A stretch of 53,526 nt of DNA. Origin: an uncultured Verrucomicrobiales bacterium (GTDB lineage: Bacteria; Verrucomicrobiota; Verrucomicrobiia; Verrucomicrobiales; Akkermansiaceae). Positions 20,340 to 44,463 of this stretch are shown piece after piece. The translations under genes were made by a program, and so were the position numbers. The stretch is taken from assembly GCA_937944055.1 (NCBI GenBank), contig CALDZJ010000019.1:1-53526 (forward strand). Direction: 5' to 3'. The notes under the pieces are model-generated. The model saw only the letters and a list, made by a program, of their open reading frames with translations. It did not search any database and was not told where the DNA came from. The first letter of the stretch is position 1; every line of letters begins with the position of its first letter.

Positions 20340-20344
20340 AAATC

Positions 20345-21724: not shown

Positions 21725-21769
21725 GCCCCGGGCGTTTATTTCATAGGCATTTTCAGAGCCTTGTGTGCC

Positions 21770-22825: not shown

Positions 22826-22900
22826 CTTTTTCGTTGCCGAGCGAATGTGCCTGAGTCGCTATTTTATGGCAAGATTAAGGCGGATACTTAGAGTTTGAAT

Positions 22901-22919
22901 GCCTGCAATTTTATGCAAC
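22901..22919 (+). promoter_or_regulatory. Putative operator 3, between the LacI and GH81 genes
   Basis: GCCTGCAATTTTATGCAAC contains TGCAATTTTATGCA with TGCA ends. It lies in the divergent spacer 13 bases upstream of the ATG at 22932. If the upstream ATG at 22899 were the true GH81 start, the site would be coding, so it supports the later start. Confidence 0.6.
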
Positions 22920-22931
22920 AGTCTCAATCTC

Positions 22932-25172
22932 ATGACGCTGCAATTCACGATTCAAAAAATCTCAGGCCTATTTTTGCTGCTGCTCATATTGAGCGCTTCC
23001 TCGAGTGGAGAGGTCATCACCCTGGGGGCCGGATCTTACCTGAGCGAGCGCCCTGAGACCTGCCGCCCTCTTCCGGATGAAATCTCTAAGATCAAAAGCC
23101 TGACCGGGCCCACGCCCACCAATCAATGGTGGAGTTCCTTGCTCTGGGAACGCCACTCGCAAAACCTTTTCCCCCATCCGCTCGGGATGCGCTGCCATGA
23201 GGGAGGGCTAGCGGTGACTTATCCGGGAGCTGGGATCGATGGCCGCTCGGGAAATATTATGGGAGGTGGAGTTTCTAAAGCGGGGGACTTTGTGATCCAT
23301 CACAGTGGCGTCCCGCACTTTCCTTCCGCTAAGTTAGCGAGCTATTCCGAGTGGTTTGTGACAGCTGAATTCCGCGAGGGCTCGGCTTCCTTGCGGACGA
23401 GTTTTGGGCATGGCAGCCCTTATGTGTATGGCCGGATCCAAGGAGGTGATCCGCTTTTGATTTTTTCAGAGCGGCCCCTGATCTGGAGTGGGGGAGATGG
23501 GGAGGCGACGCTCGGTGTGACTGTGAAGGGAAATCATTACGGACTATTTGCCGCCAGCGGTACAAAATGGACGGGTCTGGATTCCTTAAAGTTCCGCAAC
23601 GCCGGATCGAAGGGGTATTTTTCGATCGCTCTCCTCCCTGATCGCGAACTCGACACGCTAAGGTTCTTTGAAAAATGTGCCCATCGTCATGTGGTCGATA
23701 CTCATATTTCAACGAGCCTTAAAAACGGCTCCTTAGAAACAAATTACCGCTTTGAAACGGAGGCCCTAGAAGGGGGAGGCAAGGACACGGTTTACGCACT
23801 CTATCCCCATCAATGGAAATACACGGAGGCGAGTCTGAGCGCTCAGAGTTACCGTTCGGTGCGAGGGGAAATGAAACTTGCCCAGGGACGAGGCTTTAAA
23901 ACCTTAATTCCCATTCAGGGTCTCTTGCCGATGCTCCCCGCCGAGGGCATCGCAGATCGTGAACGCCTGCGCAGCTATCTGCAAAGGGAGGTGTCAGCGC
24001 AGAAGTCTCTGGAGTTTAAAGACACCTACTGGGAAGGAAAGCAGCTCGGTAAGCTCGCCACTCTGAGCGGGATCGCGGAGGTGCTAGGCGAGTCTGAAAT
24101 GCAAATGAGCTTCGTCGCGGAGATGCAGGCGCGGCTAGAGAATTGGTTCACTGCTTCAGAAGGGGAGACTGCTCCTCTCTTCTACTACAATGAGCGCTGG
24201 GGGGCCTTGATCGGGAGCCTGCCCTCTTATGGTAGTGATGATCAAATCAATGATCACCATTTTCACTATGGGTATTTTATCAGAGCCGCGGCCGAAGTGG
24301 CCCGTCTGACTCCCGGCTGGGCTGAGAAATGGGGGGCAATGGTCAATCTCCTCATCCGTGATATTGCCGCGACTGATCCGGAGGATCCCCTCTTCCCTCG
24401 CTTGCGGGGCTTCGATACTTATGCAGGGCATTCTTGGGCCTCAGGGCATGGGAAATTTGGCGATGGTAATAATCAGGAGTCTTCATCGGAGTCGATGAAC
24501 GCATGGTATGGTCTCATGCTGTGGGGTGAGGTGACTGGAGATGCCGCACTCCGTGATACAGGAATCTTCCTCTATAATACAGAGCGCACCGCAGTGGAGG
24601 AATATTGGTTTGATGTTTCAGGGACCAATTTTCCGAAGGATTTCCCAAATGTCGCACTGGGGATGATCTGGGGTGGTAAGGGGGCTTTTGCCACTTGGTT
24701 TTCCGGAGAGATTGACTGCATTCATGGGATCAATTGGCTTCCTTTTACTCCGGCTTCTATCTCGATGGGACGTTTCCCTGACTACGTCAAAAAGAACCAC
24801 GCCCGCATTGTGCAGAAACGTGAGAAAGGAGCTGATTATAACAATGGTTGGGGTGATCTGATCGTGATGTTTAATGCACTCCAAGATCCTGCGATGGCGG
24901 TCTCTTATCTCGATAAAAATCCGGATTGCAGCTTAGAAGGAGGGAATACCCACGCCTTCATGTATCACTGGATTCATACGCTAGATCGTCTAGGCCGTAA
25001 TGAAGTTGCCGTGACTTCTGCCTATCCCTTCGTGAATGTCTACCGCAAGGAGGGGCGCAAAACCTACGCTGCATTTAACTTCCAAGACGCGCCGCGCAAG
25101 GTCTCGTTCTCAGATGGCTTTCAGATGACGGTGGGGGCGCGGAAGATGGCGGTGGAGACGGAGTCTGATTAA
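22932..25172 (+). CDS. Secreted GH81 endo-beta-1,3-glucanase
   Basis: The ATG at 22932 gives the signal peptide MTLQFTIQKISGLFLLLLILSASSSGE; the frame is open further upstream. The protein of about 746 residues shows GH81 hallmarks: PTNQWWSSLLWERH near the N-terminus, then YGSDDQINDHHFHYGYFI with the acidic general-acid region, and YAGHSWASGHGKFGDGNNQESSSESMNAWYG with the Glu base region. GH81 enzymes cut internal beta-1,3 bonds in laminarin or fungal glucan by inversion. It is the extracellular entry point of the local pathway: products would be imported by the GPH transporter and handled in the cytoplasm. It is divergent from the LacI gene. Confidence 0.93.
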   Translation: MTLQFTIQKISGLFLLLLILSASSSGEVITLGAGSYLSERPETCRPLPDEISKIKSLTGPTPTNQWWSSLLWERHSQNLFPHPLGMRCHEGGLAVTYPGAGIDGRSGNIMGGGVSKAGDFVIHHSGVPHFPSAKLASYSEWFVTAEFREGSASLRTSFGHGSPYVYGRIQGGDPLLIFSERPLIWSGGDGEATLGVTVKGNHYGLFAASGTKWTGLDSLKFRNAGSKGYFSIALLPDRELDTLRFFEKCAHRHVVDTHISTSLKNGSLETNYRFETEALEGGGKDTVYALYPHQWKYTEASLSAQSYRSVRGEMKLAQGRGFKTLIPIQGLLPMLPAEGIADRERLRSYLQREVSAQKSLEFKDTYWEGKQLGKLATLSGIAEVLGESEMQMSFVAEMQARLENWFTASEGETAPLFYYNERWGALIGSLPSYGSDDQINDHHFHYGYFIRAAAEVARLTPGWAEKWGAMVNLLIRDIAATDPEDPLFPRLRGFDTYAGHSWASGHGKFGDGNNQESSSESMNAWYGLMLWGEVTGDAALRDTGIFLYNTERTAVEEYWFDVSGTNFPKDFPNVALGMIWGGKGAFATWFSGEIDCIHGINWLPFTPASISMGRFPDYVKKNHARIVQKREKGADYNNGWGDLIVMFNALQDPAMAVSYLDKNPDCSLEGGNTHAFMYHWIHTLDRLGRNEVAVTSAYPFVNVYRKEGRKTYAAFNFQDAPRKVSFSDGFQMTVGARKMAVETESD

Positions 25173-25256
25173 GGGTGAAGGGGAAGGGGAAGGGTGAAAG
25201 GGAAGGGTGAAAGGGAAGGTTGAAGGGGAAGAGTGAGGGGGAAGAGTGAGGGGGAA
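25173..25256 (+). repeat. 13-bp purine-rich tandem repeat
   Basis: It begins directly after the GH81 stop codon. There are about six units of the form GGGTGAAAGGGAA with drift to GAGTGAGGGGGAA, plus one 6-bp partial unit. One strand is all purine apart from T at unit position 4 and sometimes 3. It fills the spacer between convergent genes. Confidence 0.85.
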
Positions 25257-25285
25257 GAGGGCCCGAAGAGGGCTGGAAGAAGGGA

Positions 25286-26434
25286 TTAGCGAACGAGCGG
25301 ATTTCTCGGAATGCGGCGATCAGGCACCGTGCCAAAGGGGACGGTGGTGGGCTTCTTTTCAGCAGGGATCACTTTGATTTGTTTGATGATCGCTAGGGTC
25401 CGCTTATAATCCTCTTGCATCAATTTTGCTTGGCGAGTCTTTGGGAACTTGCGGGAGAGTTGCAGGTAGGCTGCATTCACTTTGCGGAGGGTCTTCGCGC
25501 TTTGGTCAGTGATTTCTTGGTGGTGGAGGCGGCGGTGTTCTTTGTAGAGGCGGACCTCGTTCACGAGAGCGGGGGAGGCCTCCAGCCGACTTAGGGCTTC
25601 CTTGAATGTCGTTTGCCAGCTTGGTGAGGTGAGCGCGAAGTACGGCATTCCCTGAACTTCGCGTAGGCGATCCCACTGCGCGATGAGCGGCAGTGATTTC
25701 GCCTCTTGCAGGAAGGCGCTGAGTTCCTTTTGCGCGGTGGGGGCGAGTGTTTGCGCGGTGCTTACTCGGAGCTTCAGCCACTGCCGCATGGAGTCTGAGC
25801 CATCTCGTGGATAAGCATGGGCAAGATTTGGCCAGACTTCCATGCTGAGCTCGCCTCCTAGCTTGCGATGATGCAGGAAGGCCCGCAGGGCAAAGAGGTA
25901 ATTTGGATCACCGCGCCCCACCCCAATGTGGACTGATTTTTGGTCCGCGTATTTGCTCAGCGCTCCTGGCGGTCTGCGGGCGTGGCCGGCTCCCAGAATG
26001 ATGCCGCCGCGCAGACTGGGCACAGACTGAAGCATGAGGTCGCTGTGCCAACCCCCGAGTGAGAAACCGCCGACGTAGAGTCGATCCGGATCACTTGCAT
26101 GCTGGCGGAGCAGTTGCTGGCGCACCCTTTGGAAAGCCTTGATCTCTTCTGTGAGGGGCTCTTGTGAAAGGGTCGCTCTCCCTCCATCGGTATAGGTCAT
26201 GCCGACGATGATCCAATCATCCGGCCCGGTTTGCCGCCGCATGAGCTCGGTGGTCGGGCGTCCACCGGAGCCGTGATAGTAGAAAAAGGTGGGATGTTTT
26301 TTAGATGGGTCGAAGTTTTCAGGAAGGGAGATTTTGACCGGATGGGGAAGGAGGGGGATCTCCAGGTTGAGGTCCTTAGCGCTCGTGACGAGAGGACCTA
26401 AAAAAAGGCTAAGAAGACTAAGAAGGCGGATCAT
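25286..26434 (-). CDS. Secreted alpha/beta hydrolase (esterase-like)
   Basis: A signal peptide (MIRLLSLLSLFLGPLVTSA) precedes an alpha/beta-hydrolase domain with an oxyanion block (FFYYHGSGGRPT) and a nucleophile elbow GGFSLGGW (Ser in GFSLG). A later NLAHAYPRDG gives the likely catalytic His. The fold resembles secreted polymer esterases (PHB-depolymerase or feruloyl-esterase like). The last 150 residues are helical and charged and match nothing I know. It precedes no obvious partner, but ends beside the glucan locus and starts 4 bases after the stop of the YheT-like gene, forming a two-gene operon. Confidence 0.8.
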   Translation of the reverse strand: MIRLLSLLSLFLGPLVTSAKDLNLEIPLLPHPVKISLPENFDPSKKHPTFFYYHGSGGRPTTELMRRQTGPDDWIIVGMTYTDGGRATLSQEPLTEEIKAFQRVRQQLLRQHASDPDRLYVGGFSLGGWHSDLMLQSVPSLRGGIILGAGHARRPPGALSKYADQKSVHIGVGRGDPNYLFALRAFLHHRKLGGELSMEVWPNLAHAYPRDGSDSMRQWLKLRVSTAQTLAPTAQKELSAFLQEAKSLPLIAQWDRLREVQGMPYFALTSPSWQTTFKEALSRLEASPALVNEVRLYKEHRRLHHQEITDQSAKTLRKVNAAYLQLSRKFPKTRQAKLMQEDYKRTLAIIKQIKVIPAEKKPTTVPFGTVPDRRIPRNPLVR

Positions 26435-26438
26435 TGTA

Positions 26439-27398
26439 TTAGAGGGTATTTAGAAATTCGGCACAGCGGGTTTCAGACCAATATTCCTGACCGGAGCTGA
26501 CAAAGCCAACATGGCCCCCGTGAGCGGGAGTCTCAAGTGAAAGGAAGGCGCTTTTTTCGGCAATTTCTCGGGGAAAGCAAGCGGCGGGGAGAAAGGGATC
26601 ATTCAGCGCCTGCACCATCAGGGTGGGAATCGCGATGGCAGAAAGGAGGGGCTTGGAGCTGGCGCGGGTCCAGTAATCATGGGCACCAGCGAAGCCATTG
26701 AGCGGGGCGGTGAAGCGGTCATCGAAGTCCGCGAAGGTCTTGATTTTTTGAATCCCGCTCAGGTCAAGTCGGCCGGGGAATTTCTTATTTTTCTGAATGA
26801 CCTTTTCTTTCAGGCCATCCATGAAGCGCGCCATGTAGATTTTATTATCCCACTCCCCGAGGCGTAATGAACTGGAGCTGAGGTCGCAAGGGGTGGAGAA
26901 AGCCACGCCGCCCTTCACCCTAGGATCAAGATGAGAAGCCTGCTCTCCGAGATATTTTAGGACGATGTTCCCGCCGAGACTGAAGCCAATGAGGGCGATT
27001 TTTTGGTAAGCGTGAGTCTGAGCGATCGCGTGGTCGACCACATGACCGAGGTCACCGCTCACGCCAGAATGATAGGAACGCAGAAGGCGATTTGGCTCAC
27101 CAGAGCAGCCGCGGCAATTCCAAGCAAGGGTATCCCAAGCGCGTTTTTGCAAGGCGAGGGACATGCCGCGAATATACTTGGCCGAGGACTCGCCCTCTAA
27201 TCCGTGGCCAATGATGGCGAGACTTCGATGGCGACGAGGCGACCAATCGAGATCCAGAAAATCACCATCAGGGAGCTCCAGCCGCTCACGGGTGACGGGT
27301 AGAGAAGCCACTCGCCGAAAAAGGGTGGGGTAGATCGTAGCAAGGTGACCATTACGCAGGGGAAAAGGGGCGTGATAGTTGGAGGGGATGAGGGGCAT
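26439..27398 (-). CDS. YheT-family alpha/beta hydrolase
   Basis: This cytoplasmic protein of 319 residues follows the YheT/EMB8 pattern: FPLRNGHLATIYPTLFRR at the start, LPDGDFLDLDW, IIGHGLEGESSAKYIRGM, WNCRGCSGEPNRLLRSYHSG, IALIGFSLGGNIVLKYLGE (nucleophile Ser in GFSLG), ALNDPFLP and HGGHVGFV (catalytic His). It is a predicted esterase or hydrolase of unknown natural substrate. It is the first gene of a likely operon with the secreted hydrolase at 25286. Confidence 0.92.
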   Translation of the reverse strand: MPLIPSNYHAPFPLRNGHLATIYPTLFRRVASLPVTRERLELPDGDFLDLDWSPRRHRSLAIIGHGLEGESSAKYIRGMSLALQKRAWDTLAWNCRGCSGEPNRLLRSYHSGVSGDLGHVVDHAIAQTHAYQKIALIGFSLGGNIVLKYLGEQASHLDPRVKGGVAFSTPCDLSSSSLRLGEWDNKIYMARFMDGLKEKVIQKNKKFPGRLDLSGIQKIKTFADFDDRFTAPLNGFAGAHDYWTRASSKPLLSAIAIPTLMVQALNDPFLPAACFPREIAEKSAFLSLETPAHGGHVGFVSSGQEYWSETRCAEFLNTL

Positions 27399-27567
27399 GG
27401 AGCGAATGAGCAGAGCTTCGAGGTCTCTGGCAGAGAGGGTAGCTCAAACTCGGAAGCAAGCCCACACTGCGTTTCGGAGGAAGAGCTTGGGCGGGGGGCT
27501 TCATTTTTTCCGGAGAGAAAGTGTTTTTGCTCGCTTGTGAATTTGGCTAGGCTTGGTCTGAAACGAG

Positions 27568-31126: not shown

Positions 31127-31174
31127 CCTCCTTCGTCTTGACCCACCGGCCTCCTCCGCTTACTTCCCTGAACC

Positions 31175-31984
31175 ATGGCCAAGCGTTCTAAGATTCCCAT
31201 AAAGACGAAGCAGGAGATTGAAAAGATGCGGGAAGCGGGCAAGGTCGCGAGCGATGTTCTTCAGCGAACCGCAGCATTCATCGAGGCGGGCAAGACGACG
31301 CGCGAGGTGGATGAATACGCGCTGGCTTTAATGGAGGAGCACGGTGTGAAGAGTGCCTTTCATAAATACCGGGACTTCCCGGGTTACACTTGTATCTCAA
31401 TGAATGAGGAAGTGGTGCACGGGATCGGTGGGGATCGCGTGATTGTGGAGGGGGATCTCGTGAAGCTCGACGTGGGGATCAAGCGGCAGGGCTGGATCGG
31501 GGACAATGCGCTCACCGTTCCGGTTGGCAAAATTGATGGGGAGCAAAAGCGCCTCATGGCAGTGACGGAGGAGTCACTTTTCATCGCGATTTCACATGCG
31601 CGGGCCGGTGAGCCGTTGCATAAACTTTGTGCTTCAGTGGAAGACTATGTGACGCGTTTTGGATTTACGGTGGTGCGGGATTTAGTGGGACATGGAGTGG
31701 GCCGTCAACTGCATGAAGAGCCTCAGGTGCCGAACTATGATCCGGGTGGGAAATCGCCGATTTTAAAGGCGGGCATGATTTTAGCAATTGAACCGATGAT
31801 CAATGCCGGGGTGGGCACGGTGGATTGGTTTGATGACGGATGGACTGTCGCGACTTCTGATCGTCGGCCCTCAAGCCACTTCGAGCACACTGTCTTGGTG
31901 ACGAATGGTGATCCTGAGATTTTGACTTGGAGACCGCGGACCGCCCTGCCGGAGCAGTTGGGGATTCCGCCGATGCCTGCTTAG
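31175..31984 (+). CDS. map: Methionine aminopeptidase, type I
   Basis: It removes the initiator Met from nascent proteins. Metal ligands are visible in order: DVGIKRQGWIGDNA (two Asp), GHGVGRQLHEEP (His), AIEPMI (Glu) and HFEHTVLV (Glu). Its 269 residues fit the bacterial enzyme. The last 23 codons before the final Ala are duplicated exactly at 40769-40837, where the copy ends in Pro and an immediate TGA. The gene therefore ends at the left edge of the defence island, and its final Ala and TAG are supplied by island DNA. The ancestral protein probably ended IPPMP. Confidence 0.97.
   Translation: MAKRSKIPIKTKQEIEKMREAGKVASDVLQRTAAFIEAGKTTREVDEYALALMEEHGVKSAFHKYRDFPGYTCISMNEEVVHGIGGDRVIVEGDLVKLDVGIKRQGWIGDNALTVPVGKIDGEQKRLMAVTEESLFIAISHARAGEPLHKLCASVEDYVTRFGFTVVRDLVGHGVGRQLHEEPQVPNYDPGGKSPILKAGMILAIEPMINAGVGTVDWFDDGWTVATSDRRPSSHFEHTVLVTNGDPEILTWRPRTALPEQLGIPPMPA
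31910..31978 (+). repeat. 69-bp direct repeat, left copy (3' end of map)
   Basis: It is identical over 69 bp to 40769-40837 by direct comparison. It spans map codons for DPEILTWRPRTALPE and onward. As the left boundary of the island it looks like an att-type site. Confidence 0.9.
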
Positions 31985-31986
31985 CT

Positions 31987-32988
31987 TTAGTGGCGGTGAG
32001 CCAGAGGGGAGACGAATTGATTCCAGAGTGATTCGGTCGGAGTTGCCGCTTCTGCTCCGAAGGATGAAATGGCGAGGGAGCTAAGTTTTGGAATGAGGCC
32101 CTCGGACGATTCCTCGATTGTGAGCCAGCCGCTGCAGGTGCTTTCGGAAGAGTGGGAGATATTACGACCGAGGTGGTAGCTGATGCCGTTGGCTCCTCCT
32201 CCGAAACCACCGCGCCAGATGACGATTTCGTGGATCAGTTTACCATCACGATAGAGGGCGGCGGCGAAGCGTTGGGAGGTGATGTCGCTGAGTTCTGCAG
32301 AGGTGGCGGCAGGGTCGGCTTCGACAAGTGAAATTCCTTTTTTGAAGAATGAGCGGATTGTCTGAAACTCGGCGTCGGCAGCGCGGCGTTTGTCGAGGTC
32401 GGTGAAGGTCTTTGGGACCTGGGGAAGAGTTGGGGTGGGGCCGAGCGATGAGGTCGGGCTGGTGAGCGGTGCGATGGGGATGGGTGGCCCGACGGGAGTG
32501 GGTGGTGGGAAGGGTGTGGGCAATGCTGAGGACGTGGGTGAGTTTGGTGGGGAAGAGGCGGTGGCGAGGGCGCGGCGGATTTGGGTGACGACGTCTAGGA
32601 AGGCTTCGTTTTGATTTGGCCAGGCCGCGATGGGTTTTCCGTCTTTTGGGGTGGCGAGGCGTTGGGGAATCTCGGTGGCTGTCCAGTCGCAGTGGTCGAG
32701 AATGATGGGGATGATGCGGGCTTCTCCGGCTTTGGCGCGGGCGATGGCGGTTTTAAATTCAATCTCGAAGCAGTAGTAGGAATTAAGGAAGTGGTGGCTG
32801 ATGAGAAGGAGGATGAGGTCGGCGCTTTCGAGTTCCTTTTTGATCTCGGGATCCAGTTCGTCTCCTGCGATGAGCATGCGGTCGTGCCAGATGTGGTTCC
32901 CCTCACGACGGAGGTTGGCCATGTGCGCGAGGAGCTCATCCTTGAGAGCTTCGTCAGCGTGTGAGTAGGAGAGGAAGATGCGAGCCAT
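31987..32988 (-). CDS. TIR-domain protein with Pro-rich linker and unknown C-terminal domain
   Basis: An N-terminal TIR domain of about 140 residues is clear: ARIFLSYSHADEALKDEL (box 1), SADLILLLISHHFLNSYYCFEIEF (box 2, with Glu75 as probable catalytic Glu), and ARIIPIIL. Bacterial TIR enzymes often cleave NAD+ or make cyclic ADP-ribose signals during infection. A linker of about 55 residues rich in Pro, Thr and Ser follows. The C-terminal domain of about 130 residues (TDLDKRRAADAEFQTIRSFFKKGISL, QRFAAALYRDGKLIHEIVIWRGGFGGGANGISYHLGR) I do not recognise; it may sense a signal. It is the last gene of the island operon, 2 bases after the methyltransferase stop. Confidence 0.85.
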   Translation of the reverse strand: MARIFLSYSHADEALKDELLAHMANLRREGNHIWHDRMLIAGDELDPEIKKELESADLILLLISHHFLNSYYCFEIEFKTAIARAKAGEARIIPIILDHCDWTATEIPQRLATPKDGKPIAAWPNQNEAFLDVVTQIRRALATASSPPNSPTSSALPTPFPPPTPVGPPIPIAPLTSPTSSLGPTPTLPQVPKTFTDLDKRRAADAEFQTIRSFFKKGISLVEADPAATSAELSDITSQRFAAALYRDGKLIHEIVIWRGGFGGGANGISYHLGRNISHSSESTCSGWLTIEESSEGLIPKLSSLAISSFGAEAATPTESLWNQFVSPLAHRH

Positions 32989-32990
32989 GT

Positions 32991-35900
32991 TCAGGAGGCA
33001 AGGGTGGATTCGATGAGGGCGATCTCATCGTCGGTGAGATCGAAGAGGCGATAGACGATCTGGTTGATGGCGTCTTCGTGCGCCGCGAGGGAGTCGAGGT
33101 CGTTGTCGGTGGTTGCTTGGGCGCATTGCTCGGCGAGGGTTGCGAGCAAATTTTGAGCCTCTTCGTCTAGATCTGGGATAGGAAGTTTGTCTAATACTGC
33201 CGGGAAAAGCTCCAAGGCTTTGCCTTTAAGTCTACCTTGCTCACGCAGCCAAAATGTAGAACACAAGCTGTTAATTATTGCTTCTAAGGACCTTAGGGTA
33301 ACCGGGCATTGCTGAGTAAGGTGAAATAAATAGCAATCAGATCGACAGTAAAATGGGGGTGAAAACACTGAGCAGACTGACAGTGGGGCTCGATAAGGAA
33401 ATACCAAGCCAGGTTTAAGGAAGATTCTTTGATCTCGAGGCCAGTGGAGCTGATACCAAGGAAGTTTTCCGTCTCTGAATTCACGTCTCAGTTCTAAGAT
33501 TTTTTTGTAAGGTTTTAGGTGTTCTAGAATGACGGAAGAAAGGGCCCGTTCGTCGGTTCCCCTGGGTAAGTAGAGGACAACCTTTGTGTGAGGTGTTATT
33601 ACGCCAAACTTGTGAATTGATGAATTTTTGTAAAACGGTTTTAGAAAACTCTTTCCATCCGTGTTAGATATCTTTTCGACGAGTAATCTATCTTTATCTC
33701 TCGTTAGGTCGAATACATAGACAGGGTCTCCTGCTTTTGCTTCGCCACCAATGAGATGGAGCTTTGCTTTGCTAACTGTGTCGCATCCGCTAACCAGCCC
33801 TTGGGTGAAATTCCCTATGGTTTCCAGTCGATGATGTTGTCGTAATTTTTCAATTACAGAGTTGGCGACCCCACCTCCAGCGGTATTGGCTAAGCTCGCT
33901 TTTCGAATGAATGAAGTTTCAGAGTCGAAGACGTTACCGGACGGGATTGTCAGATAGTGGGTGTCGGGATCATTTCCACCGAGTATCGAGTGGATAGTGC
34001 TATCGGTTGATGAGCCAGATCTTGTGGTGGCAGAAAGCTTGGTGCGACCGGTCGAATGTGAAGATCTTAAGAACCCATAAAGCAAATTGTGCTGGCCTGA
34101 AGCCGATTGGAAAATCTTGAGTTCTCCAAAGTCAATTAACTCAATAAAAGAGCATTCTTCTTTAAGGTGATTTCTAAGTTTGCTGGCGCCCGTGGCGCTA
34201 CGAAAATAAGATGTTGTAATTAAGTAGGCTACGCCTTTGTTTTTTAATAATTTCCCTAGTGTGAGGTGGATGAAGTAATAAAAGAAATCCATTTTCCCTT
34301 CAGAGTATTTAGATAATTTATCTGGCAGTATCTCGTCGAAAGTGGGTTTATTGCCGTCTTCTCCTAAGTAGGGGGGGTTCTGAATGATAATGTCGAATCC
34401 GCCTTCGGCGAAGACGTCTTGGAAGATGAGGTGCCATAGGAAGAAGGGGCGTTCGGGTTGGCGGGCGACAGCTTCGAGTTGCTGGTGGCTGGCCTCGATG
34501 TCGGTTTTTTGTTTTTGGAGGGCGGCGAGTTTTTTAGGAGCGCTGCGGGCGTTCCAGCCTTTGGGCTTGGGGAGGGTGCCGTCGGTGATTTTTTGGTGTT
34601 GGTCGATGAGGTTGCGGACTTTATCGAGGTCGAATTCGAGGCAGGTGCGGATGTGGTTGATGACTTCGCGGTCGATGGTGTCGCGGAGTTCGGCTTTGCG
34701 CTCGGGCTTGCGAGCGTTGAAGTATTTTTGGCGGGCTTCGAGGATGGCGGAGCGGTTCTCGGAGGAGACGGCGTGGAATTCTTGTTGGTCTTGGTCGAGG
34801 AGGTTGAGCTCGGCCTCGCCGCCGGTGACTTGCCGGATGGTCATGGAGCGGGGATCGGCTTCTTGCTCGATGCGGGAGAGGTCGACCCCGCCGAAGCTCT
34901 CGAGGAGGGAATTTCCCTGCATAATTTTATAGTCGAGATTGGGGAGAGGTGAGGGGGTGACTTCATCGACGACGAGGGCGAGCCAGAAGCGGAGGCGGGC
35001 GATTTCGACGGCGCCGAGGTCGAGGTCGACGCCGTAGATGGACTTTTGGATGATGGATTTTTTAAGGGCGGCGCGTTCGGCGGGATCGTGGAACTCAGAG
35101 TTCAGAAGAGTGCGGATGTGGACGATCTCATTGAGCATGCCAATGGGGAAGGCCCCGGAGCCGATGGCGGGGTCGCAGATTTTGACCTTTTCGAGGAGGG
35201 TGGCGATTTTCTTGGCATTCTGATGGCACCAGCTGTCTGGGTCCTCTGGGTCGCCTGCTTTGTGAAGGGTGACGAGCTCACTGAGTTCGGCCCGCTCGCC
35301 GAGGTGGGTTTGGAGGTAGTGCAGGAGGGACTGCTGGCACATGTAGGAGACGACGGGCTTGGGGGTGTAGTAAGCGCCTTTGTCTTTGTTATCCTCGAGG
35401 AGGTTCTCGAAGATGTGTCCGAGCATCTCGGGGTCGATGCCGACTTCTTTGTTCAGGGGGTCGTTTTCATCGATGGTGAAGTTGTATTGGCCGAAGAAGT
35501 CGAGAAGGGTGGCGAAGAGGGCAGGTGGGAAGTCGATGGTCTGGAGAGGGGCGGGATCGGAGTCGAAGAGTCCGCCATTAAGGTAGGGAATTCGGGTGTC
35601 GGTTTTCTCAAAGAGGTCGTCGGGTCGTTCAGTGTTGAGTGCCTCGAAAAAGAGGCTGGTGAGGAAGTCGCTGTGGAAGGCTACGGCGTCATCGGACCCA
35701 CCGGCTTGAGCGAAGTAGTCCTGAAGAAAAGTGCGTTTACCCTCGGTCCAGTCGGTGCTGTCAGCGGGGCAGCCGAGCCAGCCTTTTTTCTCGAGGAAGG
35801 TGAGGAAGACGAGGCGGCCGAGTAGTTTTTTCACAAAGTCGCGGATGGGCTTGTCGGCGATCTTTTGGGCAGTGGGGGTGGCTTCAGTAGCGATGCTAAA

Positions 35901-36641
35901 GAGGGCGCGAGTGGCGTTGGCTTGATCAAGGTTTTCCTCTGATGGGATGTGTTGAGGGTAGGGAGTGGCGCGGCCGTTGGAGCTGTCTTTCTCTTTTTTA
36001 AAGGGATGCTGGGCTTGAAGGAGGTAAGGCGTGGTGGGGAGGATGTGGGCGAGGAAGAGAGAGTAGAGTGCCTTGTAGTGGTCGAAGAATTCGTTAGAGA
36101 GTTTCTCGAAGGCGAAGGCGGTTTCTAGTTTTTGGAGGTTGAGGGAGTCTCCGGCTTGTTTGATCTCGGCAAGTTGGCGGGCGGCGGTGCGAGTGGGTTC
36201 GTCTTTGCCGACGAGGAAAGTGAAGCGGCGGGGGGCGGTTTGGATCTCTTCGTGCGTGCCGTCTTCGAGAAGGGAGATGCTGCGTGAGACGTAGCTGATG
36301 CGCCAGTTGGGGTTGTCGTCCTGCTCGAAGACGGCTATGGCGGCGTCGAATTCGGAGTCATCGAGGAGGTCGATGAGGAAGGCGCGGAGGGCGATCTTGT
36401 TCCGGCTGAGGTCGATTTTATTCTGAACCCTGAGGTGAAGGAGGAGGACGTTGTTATCGTCCGCAAGGGAGAGGTCACCAAGTTGGAGGCCACTTAGGAT
36501 GTTTTCTTGGAAGGCCGTTTTGATATCGAGTGGTTTTGCGGTGGGCCGCAGCGAGAGGTGCTCGTAGTGGAAAATCTCCTTAAGGATGGCGAGCCAGGAC
36601 TCGGGGCGGAAGGCTTGCTTGAGGGTGGATTCAATGATCAT
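32991..36641 (-). CDS. Eco57I-type N6-adenine DNA methyltransferase (PglX/type IIG-like)
   Basis: The 1216-residue protein has three parts. The first 200 residues carry a block (NWRISYVSRSISLLEDG...PRRFTFLVGKDEPTRTAARQL) that I recall from the N-termini of large Eco57I-type methylases. The catalytic core has SAM motif ICDPAIGSGAFPIGML near residue 489 and the amino-methylation motif IIQNPPYLG near 754. The C-terminal third should be a TaqI-like target recognition domain. No PD-(D/E)XK nuclease motif is obvious, so cleavage may fall to the PLD helicase. The recognition part (about 33200-34370) is visibly richer in A and T than both flanks, suggesting domain exchange. It starts 11 bases after vapC. 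Confidence 0.85.
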   Translation of the reverse strand: MIIESTLKQAFRPESWLAILKEIFHYEHLSLRPTAKPLDIKTAFQENILSGLQLGDLSLADDNNVLLLHLRVQNKIDLSRNKIALRAFLIDLLDDSEFDAAIAVFEQDDNPNWRISYVSRSISLLEDGTHEEIQTAPRRFTFLVGKDEPTRTAARQLAEIKQAGDSLNLQKLETAFAFEKLSNEFFDHYKALYSLFLAHILPTTPYLLQAQHPFKKEKDSSNGRATPYPQHIPSEENLDQANATRALFSIATEATPTAQKIADKPIRDFVKKLLGRLVFLTFLEKKGWLGCPADSTDWTEGKRTFLQDYFAQAGGSDDAVAFHSDFLTSLFFEALNTERPDDLFEKTDTRIPYLNGGLFDSDPAPLQTIDFPPALFATLLDFFGQYNFTIDENDPLNKEVGIDPEMLGHIFENLLEDNKDKGAYYTPKPVVSYMCQQSLLHYLQTHLGERAELSELVTLHKAGDPEDPDSWCHQNAKKIATLLEKVKICDPAIGSGAFPIGMLNEIVHIRTLLNSEFHDPAERAALKKSIIQKSIYGVDLDLGAVEIARLRFWLALVVDEVTPSPLPNLDYKIMQGNSLLESFGGVDLSRIEQEADPRSMTIRQVTGGEAELNLLDQDQQEFHAVSSENRSAILEARQKYFNARKPERKAELRDTIDREVINHIRTCLEFDLDKVRNLIDQHQKITDGTLPKPKGWNARSAPKKLAALQKQKTDIEASHQQLEAVARQPERPFFLWHLIFQDVFAEGGFDIIIQNPPYLGEDGNKPTFDEILPDKLSKYSEGKMDFFYYFIHLTLGKLLKNKGVAYLITTSYFRSATGASKLRNHLKEECSFIELIDFGELKIFQSASGQHNLLYGFLRSSHSTGRTKLSATTRSGSSTDSTIHSILGGNDPDTHYLTIPSGNVFDSETSFIRKASLANTAGGGVANSVIEKLRQHHRLETIGNFTQGLVSGCDTVSKAKLHLIGGEAKAGDPVYVFDLTRDKDRLLVEKISNTDGKSFLKPFYKNSSIHKFGVITPHTKVVLYLPRGTDERALSSVILEHLKPYKKILELRREFRDGKLPWYQLHWPRDQRIFLKPGLVFPYRAPLSVCSVFSPPFYCRSDCYLFHLTQQCPVTLRSLEAIINSLCSTFWLREQGRLKGKALELFPAVLDKLPIPDLDEEAQNLLATLAEQCAQATTDNDLDSLAAHEDAINQIVYRLFDLTDDEIALIESTLAS

Positions 36642-36652
36642 AGAACAATGTT

Positions 36653-37072
36653 TCAGCGGCGAGATAGGAGAGTGTTGACGTGTGCGTAATCAAGGAGGAC
36701 TTGGTCAGAGGTGAGAAGGGTGTAGTTGCGGAGGCGTGCGGTGGCGGTGATGATCTGATCGGCAGGGTCTTTATGGGGTTTCCCGTCTTTTTCGAAATTT
36801 CCTGGAAGGCGAGTCGCGTCGACGACGATCTGGGGCGTCATTGGAATGAGGATGATTTTACCGGTAGGGATTGCGATGGAGGTAAGCCATTCGTAGCAGG
36901 GCATATTAAGCGTGATTTTTCCAAGGGCTTCCTTGCGAGCGAGTTCGAGGAGGGAAATCGTAGATAAGTGAAGTCGCTCGGGACCGTTGATGATATCAAT
37001 GGTGGCCTGCGAGAGGAGTTCGGGTGCGAGGAGGGCATCAATCCAAGCGCAAGTGTCTAGAAGATAGGGCAT
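36653..37072 (-). CDS. VapC-like PIN-domain toxin
   Basis: This is a PIN-domain ribonuclease of 139 residues with the acidic active-site set in place: Asp6 (YLLDTCAWID), Glu43 (LLELARK), Asp102 and Asp105 (KDPADQII), and Asp123 (LTSDQVLL). VapC toxins cut tRNA or rRNA to halt translation when their antitoxin is lost. The Phd-type antitoxin gene is 18 bases upstream. The pair sits inside the defence operon between helicase and methyltransferase, on the same strand and surely co-transcribed. Confidence 0.9.
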   Translation of the reverse strand: MPYLLDTCAWIDALLAPELLSQATIDIINGPERLHLSTISLLELARKEALGKITLNMPCYEWLTSIAIPTGKIILIPMTPQIVVDATRLPGNFEKDGKPHKDPADQIITATARLRNYTLLTSDQVLLDYAHVNTLLSRR

Positions 37073-37090
37073 AAGTCTGTGAATTGAGTC

Positions 37091-37357
37091 TCAGTCGCCG
37101 GAGTTCCAGTCATTCTCCGAGAAGGCAGGTTCGTGGGGATCGTAGTCGGGGCTTAGGGTGGCAGTGCCTTTTCCAATACCCAAGATGGAGCCGGTAGGGG
37201 GCTCCGGGGTGGGAGCGTGGGCAACGGCAACTACCTTGCCGTGCCGGGTGAGCTCTATGACAAGACCTTCGGTTTCTTCGATGGCGCGAATTTCTTCTGA
37301 GAAGTGAGCTTTAAACTCAGAAACTGGGATTGTTTTGGTTTTCATGTTTTTTATCAT
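37091..37357 (-). CDS. Phd/YefM-type antitoxin
   Basis: This is an 88-residue protein. The N-terminal Phd fold (TIPVSEFKAHFSEEIRAIEETEGLVIELTRHGKVVAVAHAP) would dimerise and bind DNA. The acidic C-terminus (DYDPHEPAFSENDWNSGD) would wrap around and inhibit the toxin. The ATG at 37357 overlaps the helicase stop in an ATGA arrangement, implying translational coupling. A second in-frame ATG at 37345 (MKTKTIPVSEF) is the more usual Phd start. It could also autoregulate the operon. Confidence 0.88.
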   Translation of the reverse strand: MIKNMKTKTIPVSEFKAHFSEEIRAIEETEGLVIELTRHGKVVAVAHAPTPEPPTGSILGIGKGTATLSPDYDPHEPAFSENDWNSGD

Positions 37358-40300
37358 AGCAAATCTGTGGCGGTGAAGGATTCGGAGAGGATGATAGCGG
37401 GTTTAAGGTCAGCAGTGGTGAGGCCGGCAAGAGGATTGTGGGCGGCGAGAGCGGCGCTGCCATCTTCATCCGCACGGAGAGGATACTCTGAGAGGACGGC
37501 GAGGATGGCATCAAGTTGACCAGCAGCGGTCATAGGTTGTTCCTTGTTCTCTTTGATAATCTTCACGATCCGGGAGGGGAGCTTCTGGAAAGTGCCGCGT
37601 CGGATCGCGACCAGAGCGAGCTTCACGAGGTTACGTTCGCCCTCACTCACGAGGGGCGATTGTTTCGAGAAAGGTTCGAGGAATTTATTGGCGCGTTTTT
37701 CGTTGGGGCCGATTTTTTGATCGACGACTTTTTTGTGGGTGAGTTCTTTTTCGACTCCTTTTTGGAAGTGTTCGCAAGCGGAGGTGATGTGAGCGTGGTG
37801 TTCTTCGTGAAGAGGGGCTGGTTTTTCGGCGGCGGTGGCGTGGAAAATACGGGCGGCTTGAATGAAGGAGAGTTCTTCGGGATCCCCTGATTCGTTCAGG
37901 TAGTAGAAGGAGTTTCGTCGCTTGTTTTTCACAAAGGCGATGGTGTGGCCTTTTCGATCGAGGTCGTGACGTCCAGTGCGGGCACGCATGGGGAGGTTAC
38001 GAATTTCACGGAATCGTTCGGGGTTCCTTTTGCGGAACTCGCGGAGCTCGGTGAGGAGGGCTTGTGATTCATCGCGTTCTTCTTCGAGGTCCTTGTCGAA
38101 GAGGCCAAAGTTATCGACTTCCTCGTCGGTGGAATAGATCTGTGAATCTTCTCCGAGGGCAGAGTGGAAGGCTTGGAGCTTAACGAGTGCTTTTTTCTCA
38201 AGCTCGATATTACTCTCAACCTTGGTCGTGGGGAAGAAGTTGAAAACGTGGATGCGGTCGGCCTTGGTTCCGATTCGATTGACCCGCCCGATACGCTGCA
38301 TGAGACGGGTGGAGTTCCATGGGGTGTCGTAGTTTACGATGACATTAGCGCGGTGGAGGTTGACGCCCTCAGCAAGGACTTCTGTGGTGATCAGGATGTC
38401 GTAGTCGTCGAGTTGCTCTTCAAGGGTGGCATTAGCGTCGAAATTGGCTTTGACGTGCGGCATGGCGTCCTTGCGGCTTTTTGAGTCGACCTGAAGGATA
38501 CGGTTGTAGTCGGATTCCTTCATGCGCTTGACGAGGTAGTTTGTGGTTTCAACAGACTCGGAGAAGATGACGAGGCGTGGGGTGTCCTTGGTAGCGGCAT
38601 GGAAATTAATCTCCGGCGAGAGGAGAGTGGTTTCTAGCTGGTGGATGAACTCATCGAACTTTGGGTCTTCCGTATTTTGGGTCCATCGTTCGCAGAGGGA
38701 TTCGAGGAGTTGGAGATCGGTTTGGAGAGAAGGAAGGAAATCGGTAACAAAGTGCTGGGGTTGGCAGATTTCGACGTTTTCGCCAAGGGCTTCTAGTTCA
38801 TTGATTTTTGCGGTTAGTTCGTCTTCGCGTCCTTCAAGAATGTGGCGGGTGACATCAAGATCCGGTGCGATGTAAATTTTTCCATTTTCAAACATCTCTA
38901 CCATGACGCGGGTAGCATCCCGGAAGCGGGAGAGAGATTGGGTGAAGGCGAAGAATGAGCTATCTAGGCGCTTCAAAAGAAGGGTGCGCATGATTTTCTC
39001 CAACTGGGAAGAGACGCGATCCGCATTCTGGTAGCGAAGTTTTTTCTCGGCGATGAGATTACCGATGGCTTGGTAGCGGCTGTAGGTGAGCTGCTTGTCT
39101 AGGACACGGAGGGTTTCATCGTAGAGGGTGTCAAGTGCTGGAGAGAGAGGGTAGAAGAGTTTGTTTGGTCGCCCGACTTCGGGGAAGACAATGCCTTGTT
39201 CGTTGAGGTCGCGTAGGTAATCTGGGGTTTCACGGAGATCAGTGCGGGTGCGGCGTACGGTGACCTGAGTCATGATGTTTTGGCGGATGTCCTCGTAGAT
39301 TTCCTTCACGCGGAGGCGGGATTGTTCAACTGATCCGGCCTTCAGTGCGGCTTCATATTCTTTCTGGTGTGTGGCGAAGTAGTGCTGGAGGTTACGGGTT
39401 TGATCGAGGGTGGAATCCTTGGAGTCTTGGAAGAGGAAAAGGAGGTTAGCGATGTCCTTAGGGCGGTTGTTTAGCGGGGTGGCTGAAACAAGAATGACTT
39501 TCTTGGCGGCGAAGGTGTCATCTGGGAGACGGCGGCGGGTGGGGGTTTTGCAGAGCTTCTGCAGTTGGTCGTAGGCTTCCGAGGTATCGTTTCGGAACTT
39601 GTGAGCTTCATCGACGATGATGAGATCGTATTTGTCAGGGTAGCGGATCTTGTGGAGGGAGCCATTGGTGATGATCCTGACGTATTTGAGCCCGAATTGA
39701 TGAATGACCTCCTCCCATCCTTCTTTGAGGGCGGGTGGGACGACAATGAGAGTCTCAGAGAGGTGGGTTGGGAAGTCATTGTGGAAGAAAAACTTCTTGG
39801 CGATCATGGTGGCGATCATGGTCTTTCCGAGACCGACTACGTCTGAAAGAAAGAAGCCGCCGTGCCGTTGGAGCATAAGGTTACCTTGGGTGACGGCGTC
39901 CATTTGGTAGGCGAGCCGTTTGTAGCCCTCTGGAAGGTCGGTGGCCTTATTAGGATCGTATTCGATGGCTGGGCCGAAGTATTCGATAAGTAATTTAATG
40001 TAGATCTCGAATGGGCTGAGTTCTTCTCGCAGGTAGGTGTCGGCGGTGGCCTCGGTGACGTATTTTGGAAGGATATCTACGGCTTCTTCCCAAAGATCGT
40101 TGAATTCATCACTGGCAAATTTGACGTCGTCGAAGTCACGTAGGAGGACATTGAATTCGTAGTTTTCCTCACGATCTTCTGCGCCTAGTCCGGCAGCGGT
40201 GAGATTAGAGGATCCCGTGATTACGGAGCCGTCTTTGTGTTCGTTATAGTCCGGAGGGAGGAAGATGTAGATCTTGGCGTGAAGACGTTTCGTGGGGTGA

Positions 40301-40683
40301 GCTTTGACCTCAAGCTTGCGGGAGACGATGTCATCGACAAACTGGGTGATGCCTTTTTCGACTTCCGGGGAATATCGGGAGTTTTGAATATCTGCGGTCA
40401 GTTGTTTTTTGAATTCGCGGATACATTTGCCGGTGTCAGCTAGGAAAAGTCGGCCCTGTCGCTGGTATTCTTCTACGATTTCATCGACGTCGATTCCGAC
40501 GAGGATACGGACTTTAGGGACATTTTCTAACTCTGGGCGGATGGCAAAGTAGCCAGAAGCTCGCAGGTAGCCGACGAGAGCATCGAATTGCGCGATATTC
40601 GAGTTGTTTTGAAATACGCCCTGAAATTTGGTGAGTAGGGTGTTCTCGTCGCGGTTGGTGAAGAACTTCGTTGACACTGCCAT
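37354..40683 (-). CDS. PLD-nuclease/SNF2-type helicase fusion
   Basis: In 1109 residues, an N-terminal phospholipase-D-like nuclease (HAK with His135 and Lys137, then GSSNLTAAGL from 157) is fused to a superfamily 2 helicase. The helicase shows Walker A DVVGLGKT at 281-288, the DEAH box (IIVDEAHKFRND), motif III VLVSATPLNNRP, and motifs V/VI ITTEVLAEGVNLHRA and QRIGRVNRIGT. The C-terminal 250 residues include a charged region and match nothing I can name. A single HKD motif implies a dimeric nuclease. It is the first gene of the island operon, coupled to phd, with a palindrome just upstream. It probably moves along DNA and cuts unmodified invaders together with the methyltransferase. Confidence 0.9.
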   Translation of the reverse strand: MAVSTKFFTNRDENTLLTKFQGVFQNNSNIAQFDALVGYLRASGYFAIRPELENVPKVRILVGIDVDEIVEEYQRQGRLFLADTGKCIREFKKQLTADIQNSRYSPEVEKGITQFVDDIVSRKLEVKAHPTKRLHAKIYIFLPPDYNEHKDGSVITGSSNLTAAGLGAEDREENYEFNVLLRDFDDVKFASDEFNDLWEEAVDILPKYVTEATADTYLREELSPFEIYIKLLIEYFGPAIEYDPNKATDLPEGYKRLAYQMDAVTQGNLMLQRHGGFFLSDVVGLGKTMIATMIAKKFFFHNDFPTHLSETLIVVPPALKEGWEEVIHQFGLKYVRIITNGSLHKIRYPDKYDLIIVDEAHKFRNDTSEAYDQLQKLCKTPTRRRLPDDTFAAKKVILVSATPLNNRPKDIANLLFLFQDSKDSTLDQTRNLQHYFATHQKEYEAALKAGSVEQSRLRVKEIYEDIRQNIMTQVTVRRTRTDLRETPDYLRDLNEQGIVFPEVGRPNKLFYPLSPALDTLYDETLRVLDKQLTYSRYQAIGNLIAEKKLRYQNADRVSSQLEKIMRTLLLKRLDSSFFAFTQSLSRFRDATRVMVEMFENGKIYIAPDLDVTRHILEGREDELTAKINELEALGENVEICQPQHFVTDFLPSLQTDLQLLESLCERWTQNTEDPKFDEFIHQLETTLLSPEINFHAATKDTPRLVIFSESVETTNYLVKRMKESDYNRILQVDSKSRKDAMPHVKANFDANATLEEQLDDYDILITTEVLAEGVNLHRANVIVNYDTPWNSTRLMQRIGRVNRIGTKADRIHVFNFFPTTKVESNIELEKKALVKLQAFHSALGEDSQIYSTDEEVDNFGLFDKDLEEERDESQALLTELREFRKRNPERFREIRNLPMRARTGRHDLDRKGHTIAFVKNKRRNSFYYLNESGDPEELSFIQAARIFHATAAEKPAPLHEEHHAHITSACEHFQKGVEKELTHKKVVDQKIGPNEKRANKFLEPFSKQSPLVSEGERNLVKLALVAIRRGTFQKLPSRIVKIIKENKEQPMTAAGQLDAILAVLSEYPLRADEDGSAALAAHNPLAGLTTADLKPAIILSESFTATDLL

Positions 40684-40691
40684 GAAGATAC

Positions 40692-40713
40692 TTTGACCAG
40701 AGTTTTGGTCAAA
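40692..40713. promoter_or_regulatory. Inverted repeat upstream of the island operon
   Basis: TTTGACC at 40692-40698 and GGTCAAA at 40707-40713 flank an 8-bp centre, 9 bases from the helicase ATG. On the minus strand one arm doubles as a TTGACC -35-like element, so binding by a repressor such as Phd would block transcription. Confidence 0.45.
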
Positions 40714-40768
40714 ATAAAAATCATCTTAATAGGGTTGGACCGTTGAGTTTTGGTTGGTGCAGTCGGGG

Positions 40769-40837
40769 ATCCTGAGATTTTGACTTGGAGACCGCGGACC
40801 GCCCTGCCGGAGCAGTTGGGGATTCCGCCGATGCCTT
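40769..40837 (+). repeat. 69-bp direct repeat, right copy
   Basis: It is identical to 31910-31978. In the map frame it is followed at once by TGA, giving the probable ancestral map stop. It marks the right boundary of the island, about 85 bases upstream of the helicase start. Confidence 0.9.
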
Positions 40838-40843
40838 GAGCGT

Positions 40844-41176
40844 TTAGCGATTCCGTAATACAAACACGATGGCAATTAGGGAGATGATCACACAGATGGT
40901 GAGCATATAAGCAAAGCCAGAAGAATGACCTGTTTGGTTTGAAGGGCCGAATTCAAAGGGCTTTTTTGATGGAATGAGTTTTTTTTGATTAGCAGAAGAA
41001 GATTTTTCCTTTCGTCTCCTTCGAATCTTTTTGAGTCGAGGTAAGGAATCGCCCGGAGAAACTGGGCGTTTTTTACTGAAGATCTTAGGAATCCCTCTCA
41101 TAACATGGGAAAGATAGTCAAAAATCGGCCTGATCAGCGATGAGAATGCGGGCTTCTGATTGTAACGAAAAAGCAA
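40844..41176 (-). CDS. Small tail-anchored membrane protein of unknown function
   Basis: It has up to 110 residues. The first possible start is a TTG at 41176, and the first ATG is at codon 26 (MRGIPKIFSKK), which may be the true start. A very basic middle (RLKKIRRRRKEKSS) leads to a single C-terminal membrane helix (YMLTICVIISLIAIVFVLR). No family is recognised. Before the island arrived it would have been the convergent neighbour of map. Confidence 0.45.
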   Translation of the reverse strand: MLFRYNQKPAFSSLIRPIFDYLSHVMRGIPKIFSKKRPVSPGDSLPRLKKIRRRRKEKSSSANQKKLIPSKKPFEFGPSNQTGHSSGFAYMLTICVIISLIAIVFVLRNR

Positions 41177-41270: not shown

Positions 41271-42083
41271 TTACTTTGCGGCGTCCCAGAAGGCGTCCAT
41301 TTGTTCGATGGTGGCGTCTTTTAGGCTGATTTGATCTGCCTTTAGTCCCTTCTCGATCTCGGCGAAGCGGTGGAGGAATTTTTGGTTGGTTCCCTCGAGG
41401 GCGGCTTCCGGATCGATGCCGAGTTTCCGGGCGAGGTTGGTGACGATGAAGAGGAGATCGCCAATTTCGGCTTCCAGTTCAGGGGAGGCGGCTTGGCCTT
41501 CTTGATGTTTCTCTAGTTCTTCTCGTACTTCCGCGAGTTCTTCGTCGATCTTTTCGGTGATTCCCTTGGTGTCGGGCCAGTCGAAGCCGACTTTGCTGGC
41601 CTTTTTCTGAAGCTTGGCGGCTTTGAGGAGGGCGGGGAGGCCTTTACCAACTCCGTGAAGGTAGGGCTGGGCTTCATGGCCTTTTTCGGCGCGTTTGATG
41701 TCTTCCCACTGGCTGAGGACTCCTTCGGTGCTGCCGACGTCTGAGTCGCCATAGACGTGGGGGTGGCGGCGGACGAGTTTGTCCGAGATTCCGCGGGCGA
41801 TTTCATCGAGATCGAAGCTGCCGCTTTCTTGCGCGATTTCGGCGTGGAAGGCGACTTGGAGAAGGAGATCGCCGAGTTCTTCTTGGAGGTTCTCAGGATC
41901 ATTTGCGCGAATTGCGGCGACTGTTTCGTACGTTTCCTCGATGAGGTTGGAGACGAGAGATTTGTGCGTTTGCTCAGCATCCCAAGGGCAGCCGCCGGGG
42001 GCGCGGAGACGATGCATGATGGCGCGGAGTCGTGCGATTTGGCGGCTTGGCTCCGAGCAGTTGATCATTTCTTCATCAGTCAT
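41271..42083 (-). CDS. mazG: Nucleoside triphosphate pyrophosphohydrolase MazG
   Basis: This housekeeping NTP pyrophosphatase hydrolyses NTPs to NMP and PPi. The first MazG domain is complete: LRAPGGCPWDAEQTHKSLVSNLIEETYETVAAI with the EExxE metal site, then ENLQEELGDLLLQVAFHA. A second, similar domain follows (IDEELAEVREELEK, ELEAEIGDLLFIVTNLARKLGIDPE). Its start overlaps the stop of the rhomboid gene by 4 bases, so the two are translationally coupled. Confidence 0.95.
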   Translation of the reverse strand: MTDEEMINCSEPSRQIARLRAIMHRLRAPGGCPWDAEQTHKSLVSNLIEETYETVAAIRANDPENLQEELGDLLLQVAFHAEIAQESGSFDLDEIARGISDKLVRRHPHVYGDSDVGSTEGVLSQWEDIKRAEKGHEAQPYLHGVGKGLPALLKAAKLQKKASKVGFDWPDTKGITEKIDEELAEVREELEKHQEGQAASPELEAEIGDLLFIVTNLARKLGIDPEAALEGTNQKFLHRFAEIEKGLKADQISLKDATIEQMDAFWDAAK

Positions 42084-44161: not shown

Positions 44162-44342
44162 GGGCTTGGTTGAGGGGTTTTACCGCAGAGGCGCGGAGGG
44201 TGTGGAGTGACGCGGAGGTTTTTTTTGGGGGAGCTTGGGTTGTTGGGGTTTTGAACCGCGAAGACGGGAAGGCGCGAAGTTGTTGGGGCTTGGTTGAGGG
44301 GTTTTACCGCAGAGGCGCGGAGGGTGTGGAGTGACGCGGAGG
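44162..44342 (+). repeat. Pair of 57-bp direct repeats in a 304-bp gene-free stretch
   Basis: 44162-44218 and 44286-44342 are identical over 57 bp, 124 bp apart. Each contains ACCGCAGAGGCGCGGAGG and ends before a T tract. The spacer holds a related unit (AACCGCGAAGACGGG) and 44371-44390 a further weak one. Similar CCGCAGAGGCGCAGAGG sequences are widespread as dispersed bacterial repeats, as I recall. Nothing else is visible between rsgA and 44464. Confidence 0.8.
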
Positions 44343-44463
44343 CTTTTTTTTGGGGGGCTTGGGGGAGGGTTGACCACGGAATATGCGGAGCGCTTGAGTG
44401 GGGGGCTTGGAGTTTTCCTATTTGAATTTGTTTAGAGTTTCAAAATTTAGGAATTAGGATTTT

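Follow-up and report, generated by a model that had tools for sequence, protein, structure and literature searches.

A candidate cargo-only island with a restriction-modification-like operon at the 3' end of map in an uncultured Verrucomicrobiales bacterium

The end of map, the methionine aminopeptidase gene, is present twice in the DNA analysed here, and the two copies enclose five genes of defence type. This arrangement is probably, though by no means surely, a cargo-only island that has entered the 3' end of map and measures 8,858 bp from the start of one repeat copy to the start of the other. The window, that is the whole stretch of DNA analysed (53,526 bp), is the entire contig C19 of a 2.59-Mb draft genome in 108 contigs with 92% completeness. 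Judged from the protein families, the cargo is most likely a restriction-modification-like defence system. The attachment-site role of map is putative, and the island looks like one clean case of an established class of genomic islands. The features of the locus are the following:

31175-31984, plus strand: map, methionine aminopeptidase (Peptidase_M24), 269 aa, complete (Pfam PF00557, E=4.2e-47)
31910-31978 (72 bp from 31907, with one mismatch), plus strand: left repeat copy, putative attL (repeat search)
31987-32988, minus strand: TIR-domain protein, 333 aa, last gene of the operon (PADLOC PDLC00420, E=3.4e-68)
32991-36641, minus strand: Eco57I-type N6-adenine methyltransferase, type IIG-like, 1216 aa (Pfam Eco57I, E=1e-28)
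36653-37072, minus strand: PIN-domain protein, putative toxin, 139 aa (Pfam PIN, E=7.8e-10)
37091-37357, minus strand: Phd/YefM-like protein, putative antitoxin, 88 aa (Pfam PF02604, E=1e-5)
37354-40683, minus strand: SNF2-family helicase with an N-terminal PLD (HKD) nuclease-like region, 1109 aa, first gene of the operon (PADLOC HKD+Snf2, E=1.4e-48)
40693-40712, no strand: inverted repeat TTGACCA..TGGTCAA upstream of the helicase gene (sequence match)
40768-40836, plus strand: right repeat copy, putative attR, a separate map end with its TGA stop at 40837-40839
40844-41176, minus strand: 110-aa ORF without family match, in the right flank outside the island, convergent to the right copy
41271-42083, minus strand: mazG, start of the right flank syntenic with the related genome G010 (Pfam MazG, E=2e-36)

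The direct repeat extends over 72 nt with one mismatch (31907-31978 and 40765-40836), and its final 69 nt are identical. The perfect 69-bp repeat reported in the initial annotation is therefore confirmed as to identity, but its right copy had been placed one base off, at 40769-40837 instead of 40768-40836. The left copy consists of the 72 nt preceding the last codon and the stop of map. In the map frame it reads into GCT TAG and the right copy reads into TGA, exactly as had been claimed. The accompanying statement that map is complete at both ends holds for the left copy, which lies within a complete gene, but not for the right copy, which is a separate gene end. Two features looked for in a gene-end attB are thus present: direct repeats of the map end flank the insert and map itself remains complete. 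Upstream of the 72 nt the likeness of the copies ends (the anchored alignment was equalled by 254 of 500 shuffles), and a longer degenerate repeat on the 5' side, to which a VLV match in the map frame had pointed, was discarded because its anchored alignment is no better than that of shuffled sequences. No clear recombinase-type dyad or inverted-repeat core is visible within the 72 bp, where 274 of 300 shuffles equal the best candidate.

Repeats like that of the map end are not background. Exactly two full copies exist genome-wide, the third match being partial (27 nt, on C78). No other exact two-copy repeat of at least 25 bp, with copies more than 300 bp apart within one stretch, was found in 415,442 bases, made up of the window and 26 stretches no longer than 20 kb and equal to about 16% of the genome, only two-copy repeats being counted. 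At spacings above 1.5 kb, a single 25-bp repeat (in locus L122) was observed in 44 stretches, each 10 kb long or longer, which amount to 796 kb from the source genome and others and partly overlap.

The DNA between the two copies had been described as one defence-type operon, and this description is borne out by five minus-strand genes set no more than 18 bp apart (gaps of 2, 11 and 18 bp), with an overlap of 4 bp between the Phd-like gene and the helicase stop. The helicase gene starts about 80 bp away from the right repeat; at the other end, the stop codons of the TIR gene and map are 2 bp apart. The helicase carries the Pfam domains Helicase_C and SNF2-rel_dom, with a PLDc_2 match slightly under the cut-off (26.9 bits for 27). 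The methylase matches the PADLOC REase_MTase_IIG model (E=3.6e-80), and the PF02604 score of the Phd-like protein (25.6 bits) is under the curated cut-off of 29.8. The TIR protein fits the PADLOC ThsB model along almost its full length, matches Pfam TIR_2 (E=3.4e-15) and has a TIR protein as top PDB match (E=2.7e-4). From these families, the methylase would mark self DNA and the HKD-SNF2 helicase would attack unmarked DNA, the Phd-PIN pair may punish loss of the island, and the TIR protein might provide a back-up by depleting NAD. The inverted repeat at 40693-40712 is a possible operator, perhaps for the Phd-like protein. Its motif was matched in 4 of 129 loci, every one a copy of this same place.

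A foreign composition of the island was looked for by composition and codon usage and was not found. The codon usage of the five genes is typical for the genome, with ranks 28-122 among 145 reference ORFs (a mechanical set taken from 21 stretches). Outside the island, the ORF at 40844-41176 has a third-position G+C of 0.418, lower than in all 145 reference ORFs, and a codon-usage rank of 9 out of 145. Further into the right flank, two near-identical 78-bp repeats (96%) occur at 44162-44239 and 44286-44363, 124 bp apart, and partly match G010 too.

The initial annotation had also noted that no recombinase is encoded on the island, in agreement with the lack of any recombinase-family match among the five proteins (PADLOC, Pfam). 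The tyrosine recombinase profile PF00589 was detected at 11 places in the genome, 9 of them above the cut-off, and none on C19. With five genes and a contig devoid of PF00589, the island does not have the own recombinase of a gene-end integrative element. Searches for a possible carrier gave little: viral contigs contain no exact match to a degenerate map-end pattern, phage records yield no helicase match at E 1e-50, and among 72,556 plasmid records 2, each labelled Prevotella, match it at E 1e-100. For the mobilisation in trans put forward in the initial annotation, no partner element at map was seen in the genomes searched. On each of two short contigs, L143 (G000:C64) and L144 (G000:C61), a DnaG-type primase gene (CHC2 zinc finger and Toprim) accompanies a tyrosine recombinase, and the contigs resemble two copies of a single type of mobile element.

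Comparison with related genomes supports a recent insertion. The set comprises the source genome, 26 further members of the genus and 31 genomes from the wider family and order, 58 in total; map is matched in 55 of them. Within the genus, the helicase is confined to the source genome (1 of 27 at E 1e-40), and the map end, found in 24 of the 27, is doubled only there. Neither of the two arrangements that the initial annotation had named as contrary to its proposal was encountered: relatives with the same genes at map and no repeat are absent (helicase in 0 of 26 other genus genomes), as is a second map fragment without the island (0 of 23 other genus genomes in which a map end was detected). 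In contrast, two of its expectations did not materialize. The predicted empty site, in which map would end IPPMP-TGA and be followed by the 40844 gene, was not found in the genomes searched, and the use of map as a recurrent attachment site, by this or other elements, found no second case among the matches listed for 27 genus and 145 family genomes. In the family scan, 137 of the 145 genomes gave a match at E <=0.5, and short fragments in distant genera could escape it; the scan returned weak second map matches (E 0.01-0.5), and no other convincing case of an internal second map end stood among the matches listed. Map-end fragments in G029 and G499 were not counted, since each sits at the end of a contig, in G499 as judged from coordinates.

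The nearest relative by map is G010 (protein 99% identical). There, map and mazG (91% identical) lie on one contig, in the same relative order and orientation as in the window, and G010 is colinear with the window from mazG to about 49594. As a candidate unoccupied site, G010 has a single map end and no helicase, island or repeat, yet the gene that follows map is different: map ends PMPV-TAG and is separated from mazG by a single gene, encoding a 126-aa response-regulator receiver. This receiver gene occurs in 5 of 27 genus genomes, directly 3' of map in G010, G016 and G020, and was not found in the source genome at E 1e-15. The 40844 gene has one relative, a distant one, in the other 57 genomes; it lies beside mazG in G016, on a different contig from map. 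The 69-bp stretch, identical between the window copies (69/69), is conserved at 61 of 69 positions in G010; the 17 other genus genomes scored agree with it at 49-56 positions, and the map ends of five further ones fell outside the script threshold or seeds. The alignments show that the identity of the two copies exceeds what separates the species compared. The 69/69 of the copies against the 61/69 of G010 therefore points to duplication from DNA of the same or a very close species.

The surroundings of map are variable. Several different sequence groups are found downstream of the gene among the genus genomes. The left flank is not syntenic with G010, parts of 17442-27408 matching another G010 contig, and the Band_7 genes adjoining map in G010, which we take to be of hflKC type, sit on another contig in the source genome. 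Together with the receiver gene not found there, this shows that the locus has undergone more than one rearrangement. Immediately 5' of map, about 44 bp (31131-31174) are kept in G010, G013, G016 and G026, and the likeness to the window ends there; map therefore retains a leader of its own as its neighbourhood changes.

Sequence around the two joints gives an indication of which map end is resident. The right copy is followed by TGAGC and then GTTTAGCG, and the map end of G010 reads directly GTTTAGCG. Since this sequence is common to both, the right flank is read as resident, which suggests, as a lean, that the GCT TAG of the left copy was brought by the island. However, GCTTAGC at the left copy is one base away from the GTTTAGC of G010, and PMPA is close to PMPV, so that the resident end is not certain. 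The earlier proposal that GCT TAG arrived with the island thus agrees with the right joint, and the likeness of the left end to G010 counts against it.

On the preferred explanation of an inserted island, the incoming DNA, most likely circular, would have brought its own map 3' end (72 bp and GCT TAG). A crossover within the shared map end would then have left the cargo flanked by two copies, of which the left completes map as PMPA-stop and the right retains the resident end, PMP-stop. We infer the crossover, the circular form and the agent, which would most likely be a site-specific recombinase, either provided by DNA outside the island or lost after the event.

The identity of the copies and the missing enzyme would be accounted for equally well, for the last step only, by homologous recombination of the host, in which a circle or fragment from the same species, carrying a map end and the operon, enters through a single, reversible crossover over about 70 bp. 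The copies are identical over 69 bp where the scored genus genomes differ at 8 positions or more, the island is devoid of recombinase and its repeat of a clear dyad, and the 2 bp between the stops of map and the TIR gene leave scant room for integrase arm sites. However, this leaves unexplained how the operon was first linked to a map end. Moreover, placement at a gene end that spares the gene is typical of site-specific integration. Such an entry by host recombination is a serious alternative, though the less likely one.

Alternatively, map might stand at a breakpoint of a local rearrangement, its second end having been left or copied during illegitimate recombination or template switching. 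The non-syntenic left flank, the displaced hflKC-type genes, the receiver gene not found and the several groups of sequences downstream of map are all in keeping with this. It would nevertheless require a duplicated map end and the capture of cargo at the same point, in a locus where the order and orientation of map and mazG are kept in both G010 and the window, and appears unlikely. A short-read metagenome assembly could also have misjoined different strains at the shared 69-bp stretch, and the contig does come from a 108-contig draft of 92% completeness. However, the map end abuts both ends of the operon, which a simple misjoin of two strains would not yield, and 69 bp is below usual read lengths and the largest assembly word sizes. 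We regard such an artefact as very improbable.

Relatives of the operon were found in distant genomes. A search of the phylum with the helicase identified 17 places outside the window (387 genomes, E 1e-150), and the stretches around 12 of them were examined; a scan of genome contigs identified two Deltaproteobacteria contigs. A methylase relative adjoins the helicase relative in 12 of 14 loci, the other two stopping at contig edges near the helicase, and in 10 of these 12 no sizeable gene lies between the pair, as judged by match coordinates. TIR, PIN or Phd relatives were not detected in any of the 14 helicase loci (tblastn, E 1e-3). In the window, the Phd-PIN pair (36653-37357) occupies a slot within the helicase-methylase operon. 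In L121 (13357-14789), a toxin-antitoxin-like Xre/MbcA and RES pair lies between helicase and methylase, and in L125 (12597-14589) two proteins are encoded between them, one with DUF3800 and another whose 23S_rRNA_IVP match stays below the cut-off. In L119 (5952-11283), DUF6577 forms the C-terminal part of the methylase, and an AbiEii gene comes next. The pair is conserved and its neighbours vary; the core is therefore the helicase-methylase pair, which picks up different, partly addiction-type partners. In these gene orders, unrelated modules lie between the two genes or next to them, in what looks like a swappable slot, often for toxin-antitoxin genes, of a restriction-modification-like operon.

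The surroundings of these relatives were compared with those of the island. Of 13 loci searched with three recombinases of the source genome, one, L123, has a tyrosine recombinase some 1.9 kb away from its helicase. Among 8 loci checked for repeats around the operon, four have none listed and four (L120, L122, L124 and L125) have imperfect ones, of which only the tandem-like arrays of L125 exceed the map-end repeat in length. In L122, imperfect intergenic 40-nt repeats (2173-2212 and 15078-15117; 35 of 40 nt, and 91% over 33 nt) lie 12.9 kb apart. They enclose the helicase-methylase pair and other genes, and no duplicated gene end is involved.

Carrying cargo alone, the defence island is very compact; its two edges are known to the exact base, and a relative in which map and mazG stand close to each other is available for comparison. 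It therefore makes recombinase-free movement of defence operons testable on a single block. An island independent of any recombinase would use the 69-72 bp piece of a core gene as homing sequence, enter and leave by host recombination and restore the gene each time, while the Phd-PIN pair selects against its loss. This is rather unlikely. If general recombination does suffice, many integrase-less defence islands could travel likewise.

Several known systems resemble parts of this arrangement. A limited literature search combining the terms found no report of a methionine aminopeptidase gene as attachment site. The TIR protein fits the ThsB model of Thoeris, but no ThsA was recognised among the island proteins (PADLOC). 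The DUF499-centred, BREX-related Type-2 systems (Hma), as outlined in PMC12839542, comprise a SNF2 helicase with N-terminal HKD, an N6-methylase, DUF499 and DUF3780. The island likewise pairs an HKD-SNF2 helicase (with its PLD match slightly below the cut-off) with an N6-methylase. However, no DUF499 ATPase or DUF3780 match was found among its five proteins (Pfam), so that the operon may work like Hma but is not filed as one.

As a mobile unit, the island can be compared with CIMEs (cis-mobilizable elements), summarised in PMC5704250 as decayed integrative elements that retain attL and attR and have lost their integration and transfer genes. It likewise consists of cargo between two copies of a gene end, here putative att sites, and has no integration or transfer genes. 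It differs in its target, map, and in the absence of a recognised integration or transfer remnant. It is not filed as a CIME because a search for a related integrative element located at map turned up none (27 genus genomes, and the matches listed for 145 family genomes). Its 69-bp repeat is also long compared with the 15-30 bp given in PMC11476347 as usual for att repeats at tRNA-gene sites. The ssrA-specific islands of Dehalococcoides, as presented in PMC3146451, have a 20-bp repeat, a recurrent site and a six-gene integration module in sixteen islands, and some of them were proposed as cis-mobilizable elements without integration genes. The map island differs from them by its 69 bp, its single case and its lack of a module, and shares with them a position at the 3' end of a single-copy gene, with that end repeated.
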